Shown: positions 8,476 through 62,868 of the stretch, piece by piece
Numbering within the stretch: position 1 is the first letter of the stretch
Layout: every line of letters starts with the position of its first letter
NCBI GenBank assembly: GCA_018817125.1
Contig: JAHIUN010000006.1
Span: 1-64,000 of the forward strand
Origin: Patescibacteria group bacterium
Lineage (GTDB): Bacteria > Patescibacteriota > Gracilibacteria > UM-FILTER-43-11
Direction of reading: 5' to 3'
Length of the DNA stretch: 64,000 nt
Notes under the pieces: generated by a model
The model's database searches: none
What the model was told of the DNA's origin: nothing
The model's input: only the letters and a program-made list of their open reading frames with translations
Made by a program: the position numbers and the translations under genes

Positions 8476-10506
8476 TTACTCCTGTCTGTTCTCCATCGCC
8501 TTTTTCGCCTGATCGATCTTCCGCTTTACTACTTTGCTTTTCGCCTCGGTCGCCTCACGTTTTAAGCCGAGCAGATACACATTGATCTGGTCCTGAGCAC
8601 GGGCATCCAGACGGTCGCGGACTTTGAGCAGAAACTCTTGGTTCTGGGCATATTGAGGGTGTTTGGTAAACAACCGTTTGATCTGATTAGCCCGCCCTTG
8701 TGCCGTGCTGTAAATATTGACCTTACTCACAAATTCAATCACTTTTTCATCTTCCGGTAAAATAACCGCCTGACTCAAAACAACATCAGGGAGGAATGGC
8801 TGAATCACCGCGGCCGTGTACTTGATGTCTTCTTTAATAGAAGTATGGGCATTTTCGACCAATGCGATGAGCGACCCATCCAAATCGGCCAATTGACGGT
8901 TCAGTTCATTCAAAATCCGCTGTTCTTCGTACTGAGTTTCTAAGACTTGGCTAAACAACGCTTTTTTTTGCTCTTCGTCTTCCAGAGTGGATGCCTCTTC
9001 GAGGATTAGGGCAGCCATAATCTCACGATCAACAAAAGCCTCTTCAGCATTTTCTAAGTCACCTGCCTCGACCAATTCCTGGACATGGATAAGGCCTTCC
9101 AGGCTATTTTTCAGGCGAATCTGAACGCGCTCAACCGAATCCTGAGCCAGCAATTCTTCAGTCTCATTAAGCACCTGTTTTATGATGCCCACACGGGCAT
9201 CACCCGGCAGAGCCGCTACGAGTGTCTTTTGGTGATTGCCAACCACTTGGTTAGAAATCTGATCTTTCACTTCTTCATCTACCTTTTCTTCAGTCATTTG
9301 ACGAACGAGGTGTTGATATTCCATCAGGGCCAATTTGGCCTTATCGGTTTGCCCCTCTTCAATAAGAACCAGTGCTTCAGACAGGCGCTCATTCGCCATA
9401 GCGATCTGGGCATTTTGCTGTCCCTCTTCTTTAAAGGTAAACGCTAATTGCAAACGTTCTTTGGCGCGTTTTACAGGATACAAAACCTGACCCGGCAAAA
9501 AGCCGGTGGTCGCGCGAAGCGTAATGATTTCACGGTCACGCAATTGAGTCAGGTGATTACGATCAAATTCCAAATTCTGAGAGACCCATACATCCTGGCG
9601 ATCCTCATCGGCCAATTCTGTAATCGGAGCAAATACCGCCAGTTCAGTAGAGGGCTGATAGGGAGTAGCTGCTTCTAGAGTGATTTTCTGATAAGTATTT
9701 AGCACTCCGCTAGCCAGTGTATCGCGGGATTCCTGACGAAGCGCTTCCACATCGATTCCATGCTTAAAGGCGCGAATGGTAGTGGGTTCAAAAAGCTCTG
9801 TCTGAACGTCGAAAGACGCGTAATGAGTAGAAACAATCGCATCGGGAGTGACCAAGGTAAAACGCGCGAAACCGTCGTCGGCATTTAGAGTTTGGACCCA
9901 CGCCCGCCCCTGATGGAGAGAAACTTCTATAATTCCCTGACGTGCGTAACCGGGACTGACATCCAGACGACTTAATAACAAAGAGGAACCTTCTGATAAA
10001 CGGATTTCGGAATCGTCAAAAAAATGGATGACTACAGAGGAAGAATCACCAACATGAACTAAATCCCCTACCATAAGCTCAGTTCGCTGAGTAATGACAT
10101 CCCAAATCAGACGGTCAGCATGTTTTACAGTCGCCTCACCAGCCGTCACTTCTAAATAAGTAGGTTCAGAGGCGCTGACCTGCTGTTTACCATCAACAAA
10201 AAACAGCGTGCTGGTAACAGCAATCAGCATGACCATTGTAGTAGCTACCACACGCTTTGTTAAAAGCAGCCAGCTGAAAACCGGTCGTTTCATAGCCTCT
10301 ATCCGCTCCATTAAACGCACACGCGCCCGTTGAACAAAATAAGGAGAAGGACTAACAGAAAAGACCTTTTTAAACAGCTTTAAAAACCAGGCCTCATTAC
10401 TACTTATGGCGATTTTGTGCATCAAACGACCCTTTGCCTGACGGCAAAATTTGGAACGAGGTTCCACTTTCGACAGCCGATGAAGTTCTTTTTCCAGGTT
10501 ATCCAT
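8476..10506 (-). CDS. FecR-domain / DUF5667 membrane protein, probable anti-sigma factor
   Basis: A 676-residue protein. The N-terminus is cytoplasmic and contains two copies of a short motif: EPRSKFCRQAKGRLMHKI (about 15-32) and SPSPYFVQRARVRLMERI (about 52-69). A single membrane helix follows at about 85-104. The outer part has a FecR-like domain (about 115-260, including GDLVHVGDSSSV and IRLSEGSSL). Next comes a DUF5667-like segment (LPGQVLYPVKRAKERLQLAF, then NERLSEALVLIEEG), followed by long helical repeats to the end. The gene lies downstream of an ECF sigma gene on the same strand. The topology (short cytoplasmic head, one TM, large outer sensor) is typical of anti-sigma factors paired with such sigmas; the role is inferred. 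Confidence 0.85.
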   Translation of the reverse strand: MDNLEKELHRLSKVEPRSKFCRQAKGRLMHKIAISSNEAWFLKLFKKVFSVSPSPYFVQRARVRLMERIEAMKRPVFSWLLLTKRVVATTMVMLIAVTSTLFFVDGKQQVSASEPTYLEVTAGEATVKHADRLIWDVITQRTELMVGDLVHVGDSSSVVIHFFDDSEIRLSEGSSLLLSRLDVSPGYARQGIIEVSLHQGRAWVQTLNADDGFARFTLVTPDAIVSTHYASFDVQTELFEPTTIRAFKHGIDVEALRQESRDTLASGVLNTYQKITLEAATPYQPSTELAVFAPITELADEDRQDVWVSQNLEFDRNHLTQLRDREIITLRATTGFLPGQVLYPVKRAKERLQLAFTFKEEGQQNAQIAMANERLSEALVLIEEGQTDKAKLALMEYQHLVRQMTEEKVDEEVKDQISNQVVGNHQKTLVAALPGDARVGIIKQVLNETEELLAQDSVERVQIRLKNSLEGLIHVQELVEAGDLENAEEAFVDREIMAALILEEASTLEDEEQKKALFSQVLETQYEEQRILNELNRQLADLDGSLIALVENAHTSIKEDIKYTAAVIQPFLPDVVLSQAVILPEDEKVIEFVSKVNIYSTAQGRANQIKRLFTKHPQYAQNQEFLLKVRDRLDARAQDQINVYLLGLKREATEAKSKVVKRKIDQAKKAMENRQE

Positions 10507-14632: not shown

Positions 14633-14932
14633 TTAAAGATTCAGCTCAATACTCCTTAGCCCACCGGTAGGCGCACCATCGCGAATAGAAAAAGAGGAGT
14701 TACTGTCTACAAAAACCAAATAAAGTGAAATAGAAACAATAACCCAAAAAACATAAGTCACCACATATAGAATCACAATATGGCGCAAACGCACAAATCC
14801 AAAAGGTAATGTGTTCCGAGTTTCACTTAGTTCATATTCACTAGCCCGCTTATGAACCCGCCGAAGGTTTTCGACAAAAAACGCAAAAACAATCAGGTGG
14901 ATAAAGACGAAGATGACAAGGGTGGCAGACAT
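14633..14932 (-). CDS. Small two-helix membrane protein
   Basis: A 99-residue protein with hydrophobic helices at about residues 3-20 and 50-74, a basic loop between them (RRVHKRASEYE) and a short outer tail. No family is recognised. A TATAAT -10-like box lies on the minus strand at 14963-14958, about 25 bases before the ATG, but without a matching -35. There is no Shine-Dalgarno. It sits between the glycosyltransferase and guaA. The compact two-helix pattern supports a real gene. Confidence 0.6.
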   Translation of the reverse strand: MSATLVIFVFIHLIVFAFFVENLRRVHKRASEYELSETRNTLPFGFVRLRHIVILYVVTYVFWVIVSISLYLVFVDSNSSFSIRDGAPTGGLRSIELNL

Positions 14933-15059: not shown

Positions 15060-16181
15060 TTATGTAAACAAACTATAAACATACAATGTTTCCTCAGCTG
15101 TTTTTTTCCAGTCAAAATCCTGAGCCCGTTTTTCAGTTTTGTGGACCAATGTGCGTTGCAAGGCCTTATCGTGAACCAATTGATGCATAGCATTGCCAAT
15201 AGAATCGATATTATGAGGATTAACAAATAATGCACCTTCCTGAGTGACTTCGTGGTGAACCGGAATATCAGAAGTAATAATCGGAATCCCGGCCTGCATG
15301 GCCTCAACTAAGGCCAGATTGAATCCTTCATAGAGGGACATATGAGTTAGGGCCAAGGCTTTTTGATATAGACAGACAAGTTCGCTTTGATCCAGATGTT
15401 CAGTAAAAATAATCTTCCCCTTTGGTTTCATCAAATAAGCTTCGGCCACCCGCTCACAATATTCATCGGTTAAGTAGTCTTCCAGATCTTGTTTTTTACC
15501 TCCGACTAAAATGAGGTCAATCGGATAAAAAGGAGCGATATGCTTTTGATAAGCCTTCATCAGCCGGGGAACATTTTTACGATCATCATACCCCCCGACA
15601 TATATAAAATAATCCCGACGCAAACCAAAATGGGGACAGCTGATCTTATCGGGTGAAAGGGGTGGAGCCAATGGTGTAACGGTGATATTTTCTTTTTTTA
15701 CTTTTAAATATTTGATGATTTCGTTTTTAGAAAAATCAGACACGGTAAGAATATGGTCCGCCTTCCGCAAAGCCATACGGGCATTAAAATAATACATCTT
15801 TGAACGCATTTTCTGCCGATAAGCTTTCAGCCGCCAGGGAATGACATCGTGAACCGTGACAATGGTGGGCATGGGCAGACGGCGACGGGGATTGGAGGGA
15901 TAGGGGAAATGAGCCACATCGACTTCGAAACGCTCCATCTCCCTGGGCACCAAAACATGCTCCCAATGAGCTTTGCGGATACTGTCGGAACGATAGGGTT
16001 TTTCGGCTACGCGGATTTGTTTACAATTGGAAGGTAAATCCACGTCCACCAACTCCGGCGTAAACAAAATATAATCATTCTCAGGCTCAATGTCTGCCAT
16101 AGTTGCTACCAAACTGCGAGTGTATTGGCCGATGCCGGTGAAAGGCGCCGTCAGAAAACGGGCGTTGATACCTATTTTCAT
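15060..16181 (-). CDS. Glycosyltransferase, GT4 family
   Basis: A 373-residue GT-B enzyme that probably transfers a sugar from a nucleotide sugar to a lipid or polysaccharide acceptor. The N-terminal half has INARFLTAPFTGIGQYTRSL and VTVHDVIPW. The C-terminal half has YVGGYDDRKNVPRLMKAY and the sugar-nucleotide site SLYEGFNLALVEAMQAGIPI, with the E-x7-E pattern of GT4 enzymes. The ATG at 16181 (MKIGINARFL) is preferred to a TTG three codons earlier. It lies just downstream of murG and ftsW on the same strand, consistent with envelope glycan synthesis. Acceptor and sugar are unknown. Confidence 0.9.
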   Translation of the reverse strand: MKIGINARFLTAPFTGIGQYTRSLVATMADIEPENDYILFTPELVDVDLPSNCKQIRVAEKPYRSDSIRKAHWEHVLVPREMERFEVDVAHFPYPSNPRRRLPMPTIVTVHDVIPWRLKAYRQKMRSKMYYFNARMALRKADHILTVSDFSKNEIIKYLKVKKENITVTPLAPPLSPDKISCPHFGLRRDYFIYVGGYDDRKNVPRLMKAYQKHIAPFYPIDLILVGGKKQDLEDYLTDEYCERVAEAYLMKPKGKIIFTEHLDQSELVCLYQKALALTHMSLYEGFNLALVEAMQAGIPIITSDIPVHHEVTQEGALFVNPHNIDSIGNAMHQLVHDKALQRTLVHKTEKRAQDFDWKKTAEETLYVYSLFT

Positions 16182-16190
16182 AATATTCAA

Positions 16191-16320
16191 AATTCGAAAT
16201 CCTAATATCGAAATCCGAAATAAATTCTAAACTCAAATGATAAATGTTCAAAACGTTTTGTAAATTTGGATTTCGGACATTTGATATTGTTTCGGGTTTC
16301 GGGTTTCGAATTTCGGATTT
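16191..16320. repeat. CGAAATCC / GTTTCGG word-repeat palindrome
   Basis: Runs of (G)AAATCCGAAA-type words on the left and GTTTCGGGTTTCGG words on the right make a long imperfect palindrome around AATGTTCAAAACGTTTTG. The region 19080-19205 holds the same core inverted, and a GTTTCGG run recurs inside ribD at 33412-33440. Confidence 0.7.
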
Positions 16321-17401
16321 ATAAAGATAAAATTAATCGCGCAATATGTTCAGCCGCATCCGGCTTCGCGACACTAGCCAACGACTCTTTCATCCGCGCT
16401 TGTTTTTCGGGACTATGCCAAAGGGCAAGTAAAATATCATGCAGAGGCTGATCACGCAAAATAATACTAGCCCCCATGCGCTCAAAATACTCAGCGTTCA
16501 GTTGCTGATGGTTATGGGCGGAACTTTTAAGGGGAATGAGAATGTTAGGCTTTTGCATCAAGGCCAACTCATACAACGAATTAGCCCCCGCCCGCCCCAC
16601 CACCACATCAGTAATGGCATAAATGTGTTTCAGTTCCGGACCCAAATAGTCAAAAGATACATACGCCTCGTCCTGAATGGTGGTTGCCTTATCCTTGCCG
16701 GTGATATGAATCACCTGAAAAGTAGATTTAAGACGGGGGAAATCCCGCTCCACCATTTCATTGATTTCCTGAGCCCCCTGACTTCCGCCCCACACAAGAA
16801 GAGTGGGTTTGTGCGGATGAAAACCGGTGATTTGATAACCCTTTTGCCTGTCTCCTTTTTGGATGGAAAGACGAATGGGATTGCCTGTGAATTCAACTTT
16901 TTCTTCTTGGATAATAACATCAGGAAAAGCCACACAAACCTTTCGCGCCAACCTGGAAACAATCCGATTCGAAAGCCCCATCACGCTATCAGATTCATGT
17001 AAAATGATAGGACGACGAAGAATAAAGGCAGCCAAAGCGACTGGCAAGCAAACAAATCCCCCCTTAGCGAATACTACGTGGGGCCAAAAACGGATAATGA
17101 TAATGAGCGACTGTAAAAAGCCGAACAAGACCAAAAAAGGATCAACAAAATGCCGCCATGAAAAATAACGCCGTAACTTCCCGGCAAAAATAGATTTGAA
17201 CGGAATGTCGGTCGCTTTGACCAGCTCACGATCTAGCGGTACGCGCGACCCCACATACAACAATTTGATACCACAATGGGGTCCACGATTGGCCCTACTA
17301 TTGGTCCCACAATAGGATTTAAGTGCGTTGGCGATAGCGAGGTTGGGCATAACGTGTCCGCCGGACCCCCCGCCGACCAACAGGATTCGCCTGTTCGGCA
17401 T
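16319..17401 (-). CDS. murG: UDP-GlcNAc:lipid I N-acetylglucosaminyltransferase
   Basis: Makes lipid II from lipid I at the inner face of the membrane. GGGSGGHVMPNLAIA at the N-terminus is the acceptor-site glycine loop. HESDSVMGLSNR, LLVWGGSQGAQEIN and the donor site VVGRAGANSLYELALMQKP are family-typical, as is the length (360 residues). Between residues 28 and 45 it carries an unusual segment (SYCGTNSRANRGPHCG) exactly where the dispersed GGGTCC/CCAAT-type repeat lies at 17274-17318; the insert is in frame. The start overlaps the 3' end of ftsW by 83 bases in another frame, so translation is probably coupled. Confidence 0.95.
   Translation of the reverse strand: MPNRRILLVGGGSGGHVMPNLAIANALKSYCGTNSRANRGPHCGIKLLYVGSRVPLDRELVKATDIPFKSIFAGKLRRYFSWRHFVDPFLVLFGFLQSLIIIIRFWPHVVFAKGGFVCLPVALAAFILRRPIILHESDSVMGLSNRIVSRLARKVCVAFPDVIIQEEKVEFTGNPIRLSIQKGDRQKGYQITGFHPHKPTLLVWGGSQGAQEINEMVERDFPRLKSTFQVIHITGKDKATTIQDEAYVSFDYLGPELKHIYAITDVVVGRAGANSLYELALMQKPNILIPLKSSAHNHQQLNAEYFERMGASIILRDQPLHDILLALWHSPEKQARMKESLASVAKPDAAEHIARLILSL
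17274..17318. repeat. GGGTCC/CCAAT-type repeat inserted in murG
   Basis: CCACAATGGGGTCC, GATTGG, TATTGG and TCCCACAATAGG words form an imperfect palindrome within the murG coding region. Related words lie at 22458-22473/22934-22949, 28851-28893, 37931-38005 and 54160-54225. Confidence 0.6.
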
Positions 17402-18606: not shown

Positions 18607-19074
18607 ATGAAAAAACTAAAATGGCGACAATACGGAGTGTTTATTGTATCAGCTATCGGATGGCTGGCAATTGACTTAGCGACTAAATATTACCTTCTGC
18701 ATTTTTATTCCGGACCGGTTATATTTATAAAACGGTTTTTTTACATCATGCTTCAAAAAAACACGGGCATCGCACTGGGTATCCAGATGGGATATTGGAT
18801 TCAGATGATCGCATCAATAGCCATTTTGGGAATGTTGATTTATTGTGGATGGAAATATTTATTCCCCCTTAAAAGAAACTCATTCCTAAATCAATTTTTA
18901 TTGGGTATAATTGTGGGCGGAGCAATTGGCAACTTGGTGAACCGCATTCATCTGGGCGCTGTAATCGACTTCATTGTTTTAAAACCATTTCCGGTTTTTA
19001 ACATCGCAGATGTAGGAATAACGCTCGGGCTCATCGCACTGTTCTTTTTGACATATAAGGCCGATATTACCTAA
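18607..19074 (+). CDS. lspA: Lipoprotein signal peptidase (signal peptidase II)
   Basis: An aspartyl protease of 155 residues with four membrane helices that cleaves prolipoproteins before the lipidated Cys. Conserved blocks are the KNTGIALGI loop, GGAIGNLVNRIHLGAVIDFI and FPVFNIADVGITLG. The Asp in VIDF and the Asp in NIAD are the expected catalytic pair. A likely substrate in this window is the LTLGGC solute-binding lipoprotein at 22965. It is transcribed divergently from ftsW. Confidence 0.95.
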   Translation: MKKLKWRQYGVFIVSAIGWLAIDLATKYYLLHFYSGPVIFIKRFFYIMLQKNTGIALGIQMGYWIQMIASIAILGMLIYCGWKYLFPLKRNSFLNQFLLGIIVGGAIGNLVNRIHLGAVIDFIVLKPFPVFNIADVGITLGLIALFFLTYKADIT

Positions 19075-19079
19075 AAGCT

Positions 19080-19205
19080 CGAAATCCGAATACCGAAACT
19101 CGAAACAACATCAAATGTCCGAAACCCAAATTTACAAAACGTTTTGAACATTTGTTATTTGAATTTGGAATTTGTTTCGTATTTCGGATTTAGAATTTCG
19201 GATTT
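19080..19205. repeat. Word-repeat palindrome after lspA
   Basis: GAAATCCGAA/CGAAAC words, then CCAAATTTACAAAACGTTTTGAAC, then TTTCGGATTT words. It is the inverted counterpart of the element at 16191-16320. Confidence 0.65.
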
Positions 19206-19265
19206 AAATATAATTAAAACTCATTTAAAATAGAAAAGGAACTACTTCATTTACCCAAACAAAAA

Positions 19266-22457: not shown

Positions 22458-22949
22458 CCAATTGAGGACCCATAGAAGACCCAATAGATCGCGATTAAGT
22501 ATAGCAGTTATTTCGCAACCAGTTTATATAGTTTAATATCCGAACTGATAAATCTTTATAGCCTCTAAAGAAATATTCATATTTAGACTTATGCAGATGA
22601 TGACTCGTATAAAGCTTATGAATATGCTTTTGGGTTTCATCGCTCGACGCAAGAGAATAATTCAAAAATTTTATATAATCCTTAACATAAAAACGCCTTC
22701 CATGGCCCTCAACGATATTAGTTGTTGAAGAAGATGAAGATCGTTTAGCCTGGTCAACATCCCCTAGTTCCCAATGAAACAAAATTTTATTTAAATCTCG
22801 TTCCAGCTCTTGTTCGAGCTTTTTGGCAATCTGATAAATCCTCAATTCACTATAATGCACAATAAAATATTTAATAACAAAAAAGGGTCTCATTATATTA
22901 AATACTGACTAATTGACAACCCAATTACAATCAATGGGTCCTCAATTGG
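22458..22949. repeat. 16-bp perfect inverted repeat around a four-helix-bundle gene
   Basis: CCAATTGAGGACCCAT at 22458-22473 and its exact complement at 22934-22949 flank the gene 22495-22893. Further copies of the words (GGGTCC, CAATTGGG) continue outward on the right. Confidence 0.75.
22495..22893 (-). CDS. Four-helix bundle protein (S23/IVP family)
   Basis: A 132-residue helical protein of the family first seen in intervening sequences of 23S rRNA. Diagnostic segments are YQIAKKLEQEL, SSSSSTTNIVEGHGRR and YIKFLNYSLASSDETQKHI. Its function is not established; members form pentameric or helical assemblies that may bind RNA. It is one of three members in this window, all flanked by inverted repeats. 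It has no Shine-Dalgarno and stands alone between the O-antigen-ligase-like gene and a lipoprotein gene. Confidence 0.88.
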   Translation of the reverse strand: MRPFFVIKYFIVHYSELRIYQIAKKLEQELERDLNKILFHWELGDVDQAKRSSSSSTTNIVEGHGRRFYVKDYIKFLNYSLASSDETQKHIHKLYTSHHLHKSKYEYFFRGYKDLSVRILNYINWLRNNCYT

Positions 22950-32727: not shown

Positions 32728-32819
32728 TGGCGGAGAGAGAGGGATTCGAACCCTCGCTGGGGTAAAACCCCACTACAGCTTTAGCAAAGCCGCCCCTTCA
32801 GCCACTTGGGTATCTCTCC
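32728..32819 (-). tRNA. tRNA-Ser (anticodon GCU)
   Basis: A 92-nt tRNA on the minus strand. The 7-bp acceptor stem is GGAGAGA/TCTCTCC, then discriminator G and an encoded CCA. The anticodon loop is TTGCTAA in the stem CGGCT/AGCTG, giving GCU for Ser AGC/AGU codons. A long variable arm of the class II type (GTGGGG/CCCC) and the T arm GAGGGTTCGAATCCCTC are present. Confidence 0.97.
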
Positions 32820-32865
32820 GTGACCATAAAACGTTAGTTAATTTAACGTATATCGTCATAGATGT

Positions 32866-35529: not shown

Positions 35530-35539
35530 TAAAGTCGTA

Positions 35540-35976
35540 AGTCTTAAGCCTTAAGACTGAAACAATATTTAGTATTTAATCTTAAATTATCATGAAAACA
35601 TTCAAAGATATTATTGCCTGGCAAAAGGGTTATGAATTAACTTTATTAATTTATAAATACACTGCCAGCTTTCCAAAAAGCGAAGAATTTGGATTAAAGT
35701 CTGAACTTAGGAGGGCTTCTGTGTCTTACATCTCGAATATAGCAGAAAGCTTTAAAAAGAGGAGCAAGGAAGAAGGGTTGCATTTTTATAACCGCTCCGA
35801 ATGTTCTTTGGAGGAAATCAAATGCCAATCCATGATTTCTGATAATTTAGATTATTTTGCCAACAGGCAATTTAAGGAAATCGATGAATTAGCTCAAGAA
35901 TGCGGGAGAACCCTAAGTGGGTGGATGAAATCCCAGGAAAAATTCATTGAAAAATAGAAATAAAAGCTTAAGACTA
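35540..35976. repeat. 10-bp inverted repeat around a four-helix-bundle gene
   Basis: AGTCTTAAGC (35540-35549) and GCTTAAGACT (35967-35976) flank the gene 35592-35957. The same CTTAAGAC words form palindromes without a gene at 18540-18575 and 59461-59535. Confidence 0.55.
35592..35957 (+). CDS. Four-helix bundle protein (S23/IVP family)
   Basis: A 121-residue member with the hallmark N-terminus FKDIIAWQKGYELTLLIYKYT, then FPKSEEFGLKSELRRASVSY, NIAESFKKRSKEEGLHFYN and the SLEEIKCQSMIS helix. The family is known from intervening sequences of 23S rRNA and from scattered chromosomal copies; function unknown. It lies alone between comM and RNase J, with CTTAAGAC words on both sides. Confidence 0.9.
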   Translation: MKTFKDIIAWQKGYELTLLIYKYTASFPKSEEFGLKSELRRASVSYISNIAESFKKRSKEEGLHFYNRSECSLEEIKCQSMISDNLDYFANRQFKEIDELAQECGRTLSGWMKSQEKFIEK

Positions 35977-36119
35977 ATAAAAATTCAATCCTAATATTCT
36001 GGCTTCTATAAGCCATTTATTTAATAGTGGTATTGTTTTTGGATTGCTATTTTTCATTATCAATGATACAATGATACAAACACGCTAACGAATATAATTT
36101 ATTTTTTGTAACCAAAAAT

Positions 36120-49432: not shown

Positions 49433-50743
49433 TTATTTAAGCCCCTCTTTCATACTGCCTCGGTCTTTCATCGACGCTGTTTTTTTGTTGGGGGTGATTT
49501 TAATCTTTTGATCCAGCAGAACCATCTTGTCATCCGCCACGTCTTTATCTACATACATGCTGCCGCCGATAAAACAGTTTCGTCCGATTTTCACCCCAGG
49601 GTTGGTGCTGGCGTTGATACCCAGGCGTGTGCCGCTGCCAATAAAGGCGCCGAGCTTGCTGCTGCTGCTGTCTTCTTTCTTATTTTTAATGTTGACCTGT
49701 ACGCTCGCTTCATCAAACCTTAAGTTGCCGATTACCGCGCCTGAACCGAATGAAACATTGCTGTCCACCACACTGTCTCCCACATAATTGCTGTGCGTCC
49801 AAACGTCATGGTTTAAGTAACTCCGGGCAACTTCGGTTGAAAAACCAATCACACAGTTCTTACCCACCATGCTGTTCCGGACAAGGGCGTTATTGGCCAC
49901 CACCGCTCCGTCACCGATGTAGGCTGGGCCATGGATAATGGCGTTTCCGAACACCTTTGCGTTGGGTCCGATCACCACATTCCCACGGATGATGGCCTGT
50001 TTGCTGACGTCTGCTTTTTTGTCGATTTTTGGCTCCTGATTGTCCAAAAAATAATTCATCACCTTTAAAATGTCCCACGGAAACTTGATCGGCTGCCATG
50101 TGCCGGTGTATTTAAGGGCTTTTAGCTTGGCTTTGCCCTTTTTAATGTAGGTGTCGAGAGCCCTTTCATACCGCCCATCTGCCTTACCCGTAACTGTCTT
50201 GAGGCACTTAATAAAAGCGGGGAAATCGTTGTAAATATGAAGTACAATATTTACCATATCACTGGGCTCTTTCCCCTCGCCGGGTTTTTCAATCACGTCC
50301 GTAACATTATTTTTTTTATCGACCTTTAAATAGCCTCCGGGGAAGTATTTATTGATCCGTTTGCCGACGATTAAACCATCTTCTGATGACTTGGCGGCTT
50401 GTACCGCCTTCTCAAAAAGGTCATCTCCGAATACATCATTCGCGCTCAGTATCATGATGTTTTTATGTTTAACGGCCTCAGCCCCCGCCAAAACACCGCC
50501 CGCCATCCCGTCTTCCAGCTTCTTTTGTTCAACGACAAGCACGTTTTTATACCCCTTCAGCGCTTTTCCCAGCGCCTCAACATTGTGCTTGTTCCCCACT
50601 ACAACCACGTCGCGCATATTGGCCTTTTTAAGGGCTGCCAATCGATGTTCAATAAGTGGTTTTCCGGCAAATTCCAATAAATTTTTATCCGCAATCGGAT
50701 CCAAACGGGTTGATTGGCCCGCGGCCAATAAGATAACTTGCAT
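49433..50743 (-). CDS. Bifunctional sugar-1-phosphate nucleotidylyltransferase / left-handed beta-helix protein
   Basis: A 436-residue GlmU-like enzyme. The N-terminal nucleotidyltransferase has LLAAGQSTRLDPIADKNLLE, FAGKPLIEHRL, NDVFGDD and VIEKPGEG. From about residue 245 a left-handed beta-helix of hexapeptide repeats follows (VIGPNAKVFGNAIIHGPAYI and later GVKIGRNCFIGGS). It probably activates a hexose- or hexosamine-1-phosphate for glycan synthesis. An acetyltransferase activity would need residues I cannot confirm. It resembles archaeal-type bifunctional enzymes more than standard GlmU. A run of Ser (KEDSSSSKLG) is encoded by repeated TGC triplets. Confidence 0.9.
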   Translation of the reverse strand: MQVILLAAGQSTRLDPIADKNLLEFAGKPLIEHRLAALKKANMRDVVVVGNKHNVEALGKALKGYKNVLVVEQKKLEDGMAGGVLAGAEAVKHKNIMILSANDVFGDDLFEKAVQAAKSSEDGLIVGKRINKYFPGGYLKVDKKNNVTDVIEKPGEGKEPSDMVNIVLHIYNDFPAFIKCLKTVTGKADGRYERALDTYIKKGKAKLKALKYTGTWQPIKFPWDILKVMNYFLDNQEPKIDKKADVSKQAIIRGNVVIGPNAKVFGNAIIHGPAYIGDGAVVANNALVRNSMVGKNCVIGFSTEVARSYLNHDVWTHSNYVGDSVVDSNVSFGSGAVIGNLRFDEASVQVNIKNKKEDSSSSKLGAFIGSGTRLGINASTNPGVKIGRNCFIGGSMYVDKDVADDKMVLLDQKIKITPNKKTASMKDRGSMKEGLK

Positions 50744-50782
50744 GGTTGTGGTGGTTAGAACGGGTTTATTTTACCACATAGC

Positions 50783-50826
50783 TAAGTTTTTAATTTATAA
50801 TTTGAAATTTTTATTCAATTTTTAAT
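50783..50826. repeat. 44-bp inverted repeat, left arm
   Basis: It begins TAAGTTTTTAATTTATAATT and is the exact reverse complement of 51201-51244. The arm ends three bases before the four-helix-bundle gene's stop-codon end (50829). Confidence 0.9.
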
Positions 50827-50828
50827 TC

Positions 50829-51197
50829 TTATTTTGAAGAACTATAAATTTTAGCAAAAATTAAGATTAATTCATGTGCCTCTTTTAAAATGACACCCCC
50901 AGCCTCTTTGGTGTCAGGATTGGTGCCAAAAAGCAATCTCAGCCAGTATTGAGTCTCCTTTGCTTCCTTTTTGCAAATAGCAATTTTGTGTTTAAAGTCT
51001 CGTTTGGGTTCAGCACCATTGGCTTCTCGATAATTCGCACCAATACTGGTACTTGATTTTAAAAGTTGCCTGATAATATTTTCATTATATATAGTTGTTT
51101 TAATGTTTTTAATGAAATGGATTAGGCTAATAGCAAAATGTTCTGTGCGATCTTCCAGATCATATTTTTTGCCATTGGGGTTTTCAAAATTGGACAT
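50829..51197 (-). CDS. Four-helix bundle protein (S23/IVP family) inside a perfect 44-bp inverted repeat
   Basis: A 122-residue member: DLEDRTEHFAISLIHFIKNI, LLKSSTSIGANYREANGAEP, FKHKIAICKKEAKETQYWL and a final HELILIFAKIYSSSK helix. The ATG at 51197 is three bases inside the right arm and the stop is two bases inside the left arm. The unit is therefore little more than the gene plus its two arms, about 460 bp. An RNA across it would close a 44-bp stem with the gene in the loop, the same geometry as 23S rRNA intervening sequences that carry this family. Confidence 0.9.
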   Translation of the reverse strand: MSNFENPNGKKYDLEDRTEHFAISLIHFIKNIKTTIYNENIIRQLLKSSTSIGANYREANGAEPKRDFKHKIAICKKEAKETQYWLRLLFGTNPDTKEAGGVILKEAHELILIFAKIYSSSK

Positions 51198-51200
51198 TTG

Positions 51201-51244
51201 ATTAAAAATTGAATAAAAATTTCAAATTATAAATTAAAAACTTA
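51201..51244. repeat. 44-bp inverted repeat, right arm
   Basis: It begins ATTAAAAATTGAATAAAAAT. It also contains the last two sense codons and stop (51234-51236) of the neighbouring ComEC-like gene, so it reaches into that gene's 3' end. A related palindrome without a gene lies at 62785-62868. Confidence 0.9.
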
Positions 51245-52082
51245 TTATAATTGTTCCCTCCTCCATCGTCTGCCGCACATCCAAATCCCCTAATTTTTCC
51301 AGCGTTTCCGGGTGCGGATGATCAAACGTGTTTCCCTCTCCGGCAGATACGACAGCTGTTGTCGGATTAACCGCCGCCAAAAAAACATCCGATGTCGCCG
51401 TTCGGCTACCGTGGTGACCGACTTTTAAAATAGTCGATGCTACGTCCTGGCCGGCCAGCAGGATTTCACGCTCCTCTTCCTGTTCCGCATCTCCGGTTAG
51501 TAAGGCCAACGGTGCCAAGCCACCAGGTGTCCGCTGTGCCAAACGCGCAACAACAGAGGCGTTATTTTCATTGCTCACATCCTGACCCACCAGGTTATGT
51601 CCCGCGAATGGATAAAGGATATCGAGATACAGGTTGGGACCGACGCGAAAGTCTTGATGGTTTTGGTTAAAAAACACCTCAATACCATCAAGCCGAACAC
51701 GCTCTAAAAACGCCCGATATAACGGATCGCTGGAATGGGTACCGGTTAGCAGAATTTTTTTAATCTTATATTTCTGCATCACATCCAAAATCCCCCCATA
51801 GTGGTCACGGTGGGCATGTGTAAGGATGAAGAGGTCGATGGTTTTATCAAAATAACCAAGCCGTCCGCCGAGCTGATCGACCACCACACTGTCTGGCCCC
51901 GCATCGATGAGAATATTGTGATATTCAGGCGTCCGGATGAGAATAGCATCTCCTTGACCCACATCTAAGATACTCATGGCCAACGGTCGAGATAAGCCGG
52001 GCAGTGTTAAAACAGACAGAAACAGCATTCCTATCCCTATCCCATAGAACCAGATCCAGTGTTTACGTTTTAAGTGGCGCAT
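51234..52082 (-). CDS. ComEC-like secreted metallo-beta-lactamase hydrolase
   Basis: A 282-residue protein. One N-terminal membrane helix or signal anchor (about 8-28) precedes an MBL domain: SILDVGQGDAILIRTP, LTHAHRDHYGGI, LLTGDAEQEEE and LKVGHHGSRTATS. These motifs are those of the ComEC C-terminal hydrolase, thought to degrade one strand or process DNA during uptake. The ComEC pore domain is missing, so it is either a stand-alone version or part of a split system. Its last codons lie in the inverted-repeat arm of the neighbouring element. Confidence 0.9.
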   Translation of the reverse strand: MRHLKRKHWIWFYGIGIGMLFLSVLTLPGLSRPLAMSILDVGQGDAILIRTPEYHNILIDAGPDSVVVDQLGGRLGYFDKTIDLFILTHAHRDHYGGILDVMQKYKIKKILLTGTHSSDPLYRAFLERVRLDGIEVFFNQNHQDFRVGPNLYLDILYPFAGHNLVGQDVSNENNASVVARLAQRTPGGLAPLALLTGDAEQEEEREILLAGQDVASTILKVGHHGSRTATSDVFLAAVNPTTAVVSAGEGNTFDHPHPETLEKLGDLDVRQTMEEGTIIISF

Positions 52083-59460: not shown

Positions 59461-59535
59461 TTATAGTCTTAAGTTATAAGTCTTAAACCCTAAGCCTGTG
59501 GTCTTTGGCTTACCGCTTAGGACTTAAGACTTATA
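59461..59535. repeat. CTTAAGAC / GTCTTAAG word palindrome
   Basis: TATAGTCTTAAGTTATAAGTC on the left and GGACTTAAGACTTATAG on the right with CCTAAGC/GCTTAGG inside. It is the gene-free counterpart of the repeats around the 35592 gene. Confidence 0.65.
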
Positions 59536-59612
59536 GCTTTTCAAATTGAACCTCACACAGGATAACAGCAGACGTTTGAGATGACAAAAGCTTTTTTCAT
59601 GGGCATTTACAT

Positions 59613-62784: not shown

Positions 62785-62868
62785 AATAAATTTTTAATTT
62801 ATATTTTTTAATTTTTAATAAAAATTGATTAAAAATTTTAAATTTCAAATTAAAAATTAAAGTGAGCT
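62785..62868. repeat. AT-rich word palindrome without a gene
   Basis: AAATTTTTAATTTATA on the left and AAATTTCAAATTAAAAATT on the right. The words match the 44-bp arms at 50783/51201, but here they are close together with no gene between. Confidence 0.6.

Follow-up and report, generated by a model that had tools for sequence, protein, structure and literature searches.

Among the known systems close to the locus analysed here are intervening sequences of 23S rRNA that carry an open reading frame of the S23/IVP family. In Coxiella, such an intervening sequence measures 428–444 nt and is cut by RNase III (PMC4990558), and the function of the S23/IVP family is described as unknown (PMC4990558, PMC11270868). 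Also known are RAYT genes flanked by terminal inverted repeats (TIRs) with dispersed TIR families (PMC3733652). We analysed a 64,000-nt stretch of DNA (hereafter the window) from a Patescibacteria genome, designated G000. A preliminary description had drawn attention to a small S23/IVP-family gene at 50783–51244 that is enclosed by an inverted repeat, and had suggested a mobile or RNA-processed unit. Our comparisons indicate that this target unit belongs to a widespread bacterial family of very small elements that are apparently mobile and have arms matched to the protein inside. Its parts and neighbours are as follows.

49433–50743, minus strand: downstream neighbour, a gene for a GlmU-like nucleotidyl/acyl transferase (profile matches)
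50767–50780, minus strand: conserved TATGGTAAAAT-like box, the putative promoter of the GlmU-like gene
50783–50826, minus strand: downstream arm, an inverted copy of the array AGTTTTT-AATTTAT-AATTTGA-AATTTTT-ATTC-AATTTTT-AAT
50829–51197, minus strand: gene for the 122-aa IVP/S23 four-helix-bundle protein (profile matches, AlphaFold2 model)
51201–51244, minus strand: upstream arm, which holds the stop codon (51234–51236) of the ComEC-like gene
51234–52082, minus strand: upstream neighbour, a gene for a ComEC-like, metallo-beta-lactamase-fold protein (profile matches; orthologous site compared in relatives)

The anatomy reported in the preliminary description proved accurate. The arms are exact reverse complements (44 of 44 positions, 374 nt apart), only 2 bases (50827–50828) and 3 bases (51198–51200) separate them from the gene, and the transcript is predicted to fold strongly (−120 kcal/mol, z = −8.2), its complementary ends forming a stem around the ORF. 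The unit abuts the ComEC-like gene, since its right arm supplies that gene's stop codon. No rRNA match was found in the window, and the unit lies between the ComEC-like and GlmU-like genes. The S23/IVP assignment likewise held, with matches above the curated cut-offs of both PF05635 (2.4e-14; 53.9 v 33.8 bits) and TIGR02436 (5.1e-19; 68.5 v 24 bits). The protein, modelled as a monomer with AlphaFold2, is predicted to form four helices (pLDDT 91.8). Its nearest solved folds are 2RLD (E 4.7e-05) and 2GSC (TM about 0.8), S23-family proteins that each have five chains, followed by Avd of diversity-generating retroelements (4DWL, 8UB7). A Pfam search of the protein matched only PF05635 and found no catalytic domain, and a profile search found no DDE, HUH or serine/tyrosine recombinase inside the element. 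Because the protein carries no catalytic domain that we could find, self-mobilisation of the element is unproven. Three other roles were considered and rejected: an accessory of a diversity-generating retroelement (no reverse transcriptase, PF00078, in G000, which is 89% complete, or in G001), a phage gene (no match in PHROGs, and among 2.9 million viral contigs only 3 relatives) and a known defence gene (no PADLOC match).

The target gene is one of 16 PF05635 genes in G000 (genome 89% complete), and at least one such gene occurs in 62 of the 117 genomes sampled from the class. An intergenic setting, which the preliminary description had treated as notable, is the usual situation for this family. 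Inverted arms scoring at least 14 were present at 62% of 116 IVP loci with full flanks, the remaining 38% having no clear inverted repeat at this threshold. By comparison, the figure was 0.6% when left and right flanks were paired between loci, 2.6% for direct repeats at the same locus and 1.7% for inverted arms at control genes of 90–250 aa. In a separate set of 78 loci from CPR and other phyla, picked by similarity to the target protein, arms were found at 69%; between-locus pairing there gave 17%, because the arms have one common design. The score thresholds used throughout, 14 and 16, were our own choice and not set blindly. Within G000, 10 of the 16 IVP loci scored above the best of 200 shuffles; L013 and L019 did so only with other flank boundaries.

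The target arms are very rich in A+T, and comparable AT-rich stretches are found at other places in the genome, as would be expected if the repeat were a chance match or an assembly artefact. However, a scan of 464 kb of G000 (about 45%) returned 41 inverted repeats scoring at least 16, of which the target's is the strongest, and locally shuffled sequence returned none. The same design also recurs at many loci in independent assemblies, including loci with G+C-richer arms. Shuffles, cross-locus pairings (0.6%) and control genes together rule out chance or low complexity, one of two outcomes that the preliminary description had named as refuting, and we assign the chance or artefact reading a negligible probability.

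How the arms are built proved informative. Those of the target subfamily show excess self-matching at a lag of 7 (1.37 and 1.41 times the expected level), echoed at 14, 18 and 25. After two AATnnnn heptads, the next AAT follows a unit of 4, 7, 11 or 14 bases, other spacings being rarer. The target array, mirrored across the gene, obeys this phased rule of 7-bp units and 4-bp steps. Different units, such as GTAACTT, CCGATTA or stretches of 11–12 bp, are found in other IVP subfamilies. Across 117 loci, protein identity correlated with arm 4-mer similarity (Mantel r = 0.70, p = 0.001), the only correction for kinship being a flank control; taken 300 bp further out, that control gave r = 0.006. 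Given these two values, the arms are therefore inherited with the gene and not with the neighbourhood. Comparison at the sequence level thus demonstrates that each protein subfamily passes on its own arm type.

Arrays that are tightly phased and specific to a subfamily are also what a static operator might look like, in which the IVP protein would bind the heptad arrays around its own gene for autoregulation and nothing would move. Omega-type repressors bind heptads. Against this stand the placement of arrays on both sides in strictly inverted orientation (direct-repeat control, 2.6%) and the relocated units, empty sites and dispersed gene-less copies described below. As a complete account, a static operator is largely refuted, and we consider it very improbable.

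Several observations concern the wider IVP family. A divergent subgroup (L024, L085, L104, L124, L147, L151, L154 and L155) has non-tandem arms near CTRRCAAYTACATT-TGACTGYCAC; these arms are conserved between genera, in part at least at common sites (L024/L147/L151), and the subgroup may be a stable, vertically kept copy. At L010:1477-2535 (G000:C2:58341), an IVP domain is joined in a single 352-aa frame to a prepilin-type N-terminal methylation motif, and similar frames of 347–374 aa occur in other genera (G004:C97, G012:C13, G002:C69); a domesticated fusion is possible. In G069, G111, G115 and G076, several IVP genes contain 2–7 in-frame TGA codons, which suggests that these relatives read TGA as sense.

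We compared the target site with its counterparts in relatives. In most genomes of the family, the ComEC-like gene lies next to the GlmU-like gene, and 7 to 114 bp without an IVP separate the two in G005, G010, G004, G009, G015, G014, G008 and G017. G003, G012 and G016 carry other inserts there. By eye, the broken inserts in G016 (L057) and G012 (L062) resemble RAYT transposases; Pfam did not bear this out for a 45-aa piece that was searched, and the reading as a RAYT relic was rejected. In G001, the only congener of G000, the site retains one arm and the final codons for the same protein, the remainder having been deleted. The simplest history is acquisition of the unit within this genus, with ongoing decay in the sister species. 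The TATGGTAAAAT-like box lies just outside the element and is retained at empty sites, with the same box in G005, G004, G009 and G012. The empty orthologous site for which the preliminary description had proposed a search is therefore present in most relatives, and its other refuting outcome, arms fixed at this locus in all relatives, was looked for and not seen.

Two further IVP elements in the window gave related pictures.

22458–22949, minus strand: second IVP element, arms CCAATTGAGGACCCAT; the same site in G001 holds a gene-less copy of the ~125-bp family described below
35532–35991, plus strand: third IVP element, at the same site in G007 and precisely absent from G001

The third element has TAAT at both ends, compared with one copy in the empty G001 site. 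This TAAT pair is the only one seen; no target-site duplication is consistent across elements, and none is evident for the relocated pair L026/L027. Elsewhere in the window, a 118-bp segment (32728–32845) containing a tRNA gene (32731–32819) is inverted in G001 within otherwise collinear DNA, at 91% identity.

The pair L026/L027, from the congeners G036 and G054, illustrates relocation most directly. The proteins are 94.7% identical and the units 90.6% identical over 463 bp, and similarity ends at the outer edges of the arms, the surrounding DNA being unrelated. These are relocated copies with intact arms of the kind that the preliminary description had put forward as support. Many more distant IVP pairs behave in the same way; other pairs keep common flanks and are vertical, among them L024/L147 (dN 0.025, dS 0.436). 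Within a genome, IVP copies are at best 28–57% identical to one another, so proliferation is confined to arm-only copies and does not extend to the IVP genes.

Such arm-only copies are frequent. Only 5 of the 41 strong inverted repeats in the scanned 464 kb enclose an IVP, and many of the others repeat the arm type of an IVP from the same genome. Gene-less inverted arrays reach 53–69 per Mb in three IVP-rich genomes and 3–7 per Mb in three IVP-poor ones, roughly a tenfold difference in density. When 36 solo arrays were compared with IVP arms, 10 fitted arms of their own genome clearly better than foreign arms, and none showed the reverse; such matching extends to only part of the solo arrays. 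Gene-less palindromes of ~125 bp form one family, represented by eight copies in G016 and by about ten or more in each of G000 and G001. The two halves of these palindromes match arms of IVP elements L128 (G016) and L190, as if the palindrome were an IVP element from which the gene had dropped out. The window contains the following gene-less arrays, to which no strand is assigned.

16175–16321: ~125-bp heptad palindrome of a MITE-like family, AAATCCG type (family comparison)
19072–19212: ~125-bp heptad palindrome of the same MITE-like family (family comparison)
59471–59539: inverted array of the AAGTCTTAAGCC type, the type of the arms of the 35532–35991 element; also present in G001
62789–62858: inverted array with the AATTTTT type of the target's arms; not present in G001

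Gene-less palindromes cognate to the flanking repeats were thus found for the IVP family as a whole; for the target's own arm type the pattern is weaker and comprises a few AT-rich arrays. Genome comparison thus establishes the unit boundaries, gain, loss, relocation, co-inheritance of arm and protein, and the link to gene-less arrays. The mobile half of the original suggestion is upheld by empty sites, a relic, relocated copies with arms, and gene-less arrays; its RNA-processed half fared less well (see below).

Two other sets of palindromes were noted. Genes of the GxxExxY/PDDEXK_3 family (PF13366) have comparable arms at 4 of 9 loci; L308, L310, L311 and L316 lie between inverted arrays TGTCTGAACTGTGATT..., and six gene-less TGTCTGAACTGTGATT copies are present in G000 (L240:4387-4494, L242:8753-8878, L243:5568-5695 and 9010-9134, L245:11167-11306 and 14688-14773). 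PF13366 is a second gene family with the same arm-gene-arm architecture as IVP. Perfect palindromes with GTAG...CGCGCCA, resembling GTAG-type REPs, occur at L240:14482-14525, L242:18984-19025 and L249:4169-4206.

An RNA-level reading would hold that the arms are kept because RNase III cuts the transcript's 44-bp stem and so renders insertion into an operon harmless, as in 23S rRNA. The predicted fold of the target transcript and the Coxiella precedent, an RNase III substrate (PMC4990558) that matches the target in size and anatomy, are in line with this proposal. So is gene orientation: between co-directional genes, 101 IVPs are co-oriented with both neighbours and 15 are opposed, a bias consistent with transcription from promoters upstream and compatible with RNA processing. 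However, selection on an RNA stem should leave G-U asymmetry between the arms. A first set of loci gave 80 v 60 (p = 0.11) for G-U-compatible arm changes on the sense strand, and on the larger set this signal was gone (106 v 95, p = 0.48), so we rejected this argument. In addition, some arms (L047, L145) have identical heptads in differing order, and RNA cutting alone leaves the gene-less arrays and DNA relocation unexplained. The absent G-U bias and the reordered heptads favour recognition of the array units as DNA. We regard the RNA-level account as unlikely.

A second proposal is that a RAYT/Y1 (HUH) transposase, acting in trans on single-stranded hairpins that it recognises, mobilises the unit as a passenger, with the IVP protein serving as cargo or helper. 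RAYTs are present in all IVP-rich genomes of the family except G013 and absent from the IVP-poor ones, hairpin substrates suit HUH enzymes, and the TIR-flanked RAYTs cited at the outset provide a precedent. Since genomes with more RAYTs also tend to have more IVPs (rho 0.72, p = 0.0009), mobilisation by RAYT in trans stays a serious rival. Nevertheless, comparable arms accompany only 2 of 27 RAYT genes (7%) and differ in sequence, the arms of the MITE-like family are closer to the flanks of IVPs than to those of RAYTs (29 v 19.5), and arm type goes with the IVP protein. On balance, we doubt this explanation, while granting it some weight.

We consider it somewhat more probable than not that 50783–51244 is one complete minimal mobile element, consisting of inverted array, IVP gene and array, for whose spread recognition of the array by the protein is needed. 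The best reading is that this element has the form of an rRNA intervening sequence and works like a REPIN/RAYT pair, without a recognised nuclease or reverse transcriptase. The IVP protein would form a pentameric ring like its solved relatives and would recognise its cognate array, as duplex or hairpin, through putative binding. Such recognition may be what both the element and its gene-less copies need in order to spread. The hairpin, whether single-stranded or cruciform, is most likely the substrate of an enzyme from the host or another element, no nuclease or reverse transcriptase having been recognised in the element itself. The target unit would have inserted where it is probably least harmful, between the 3' end of the ComEC-like gene and the GlmU-like promoter.

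This reading of the target as a minimal mobile element offers a directly testable lead on function, as every IVP protein is accompanied by a putative recognition array of its own. The arrays also explain much of the strong inverted repetition found at short range in these small genomes. A search of the open-licence literature found no papers on arrays around IVP genes. More tentatively, IVP elements could constitute a distinct class of mobile element in which a non-enzymatic, ring-forming protein acts as specificity factor for its own heptad array and for gene-less copies. The intervening sequences of rRNA would then be copies that landed in rRNA helices, and the arm-gene-arm finding would offer an origin for them.

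Compared with described systems, the target resembles in form the 23S rRNA intervening sequences that carry an S23/IVP ORF (Leptospira, Coxiella and others), with which it shares the protein family, complementary ends around the ORF, sporadic presence and a similar size (462 nt, against 428–444 nt in Coxiella). It differs in lying outside any 23S or 16S rRNA gene, and the arms of its family are heptad-phased, subfamily-specific arrays with dispersed gene-less relatives. Avd of diversity-generating retroelements has the same four-helix-bundle fold (4DWL, 8UB7), whereas the target is S23/IVP in sequence and nearest to 2RLD, and neither G000 nor G001 has a reverse transcriptase. The PF13366 loci (4 of 9 between inverted TGTCTGAACTGTGATT arrays, with gene-less copies in G000) share the architecture but encode an unrelated protein of a family that is nuclease-like by name, with another arm sequence. 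Finally, REPIN/RAYT (TnpA-REP) and TIRYT systems likewise combine a small gene between inverted repeats with dispersed gene-less palindromes in the same genome, and their genes, too, are diverged copies and not recent duplicates. In contrast to both, the target gene has no Y1/HUH domain, and IVP arms are tandem heptad arrays where REPINs are GTAG-tagged hairpins, the RAYT loci here being mostly armless.
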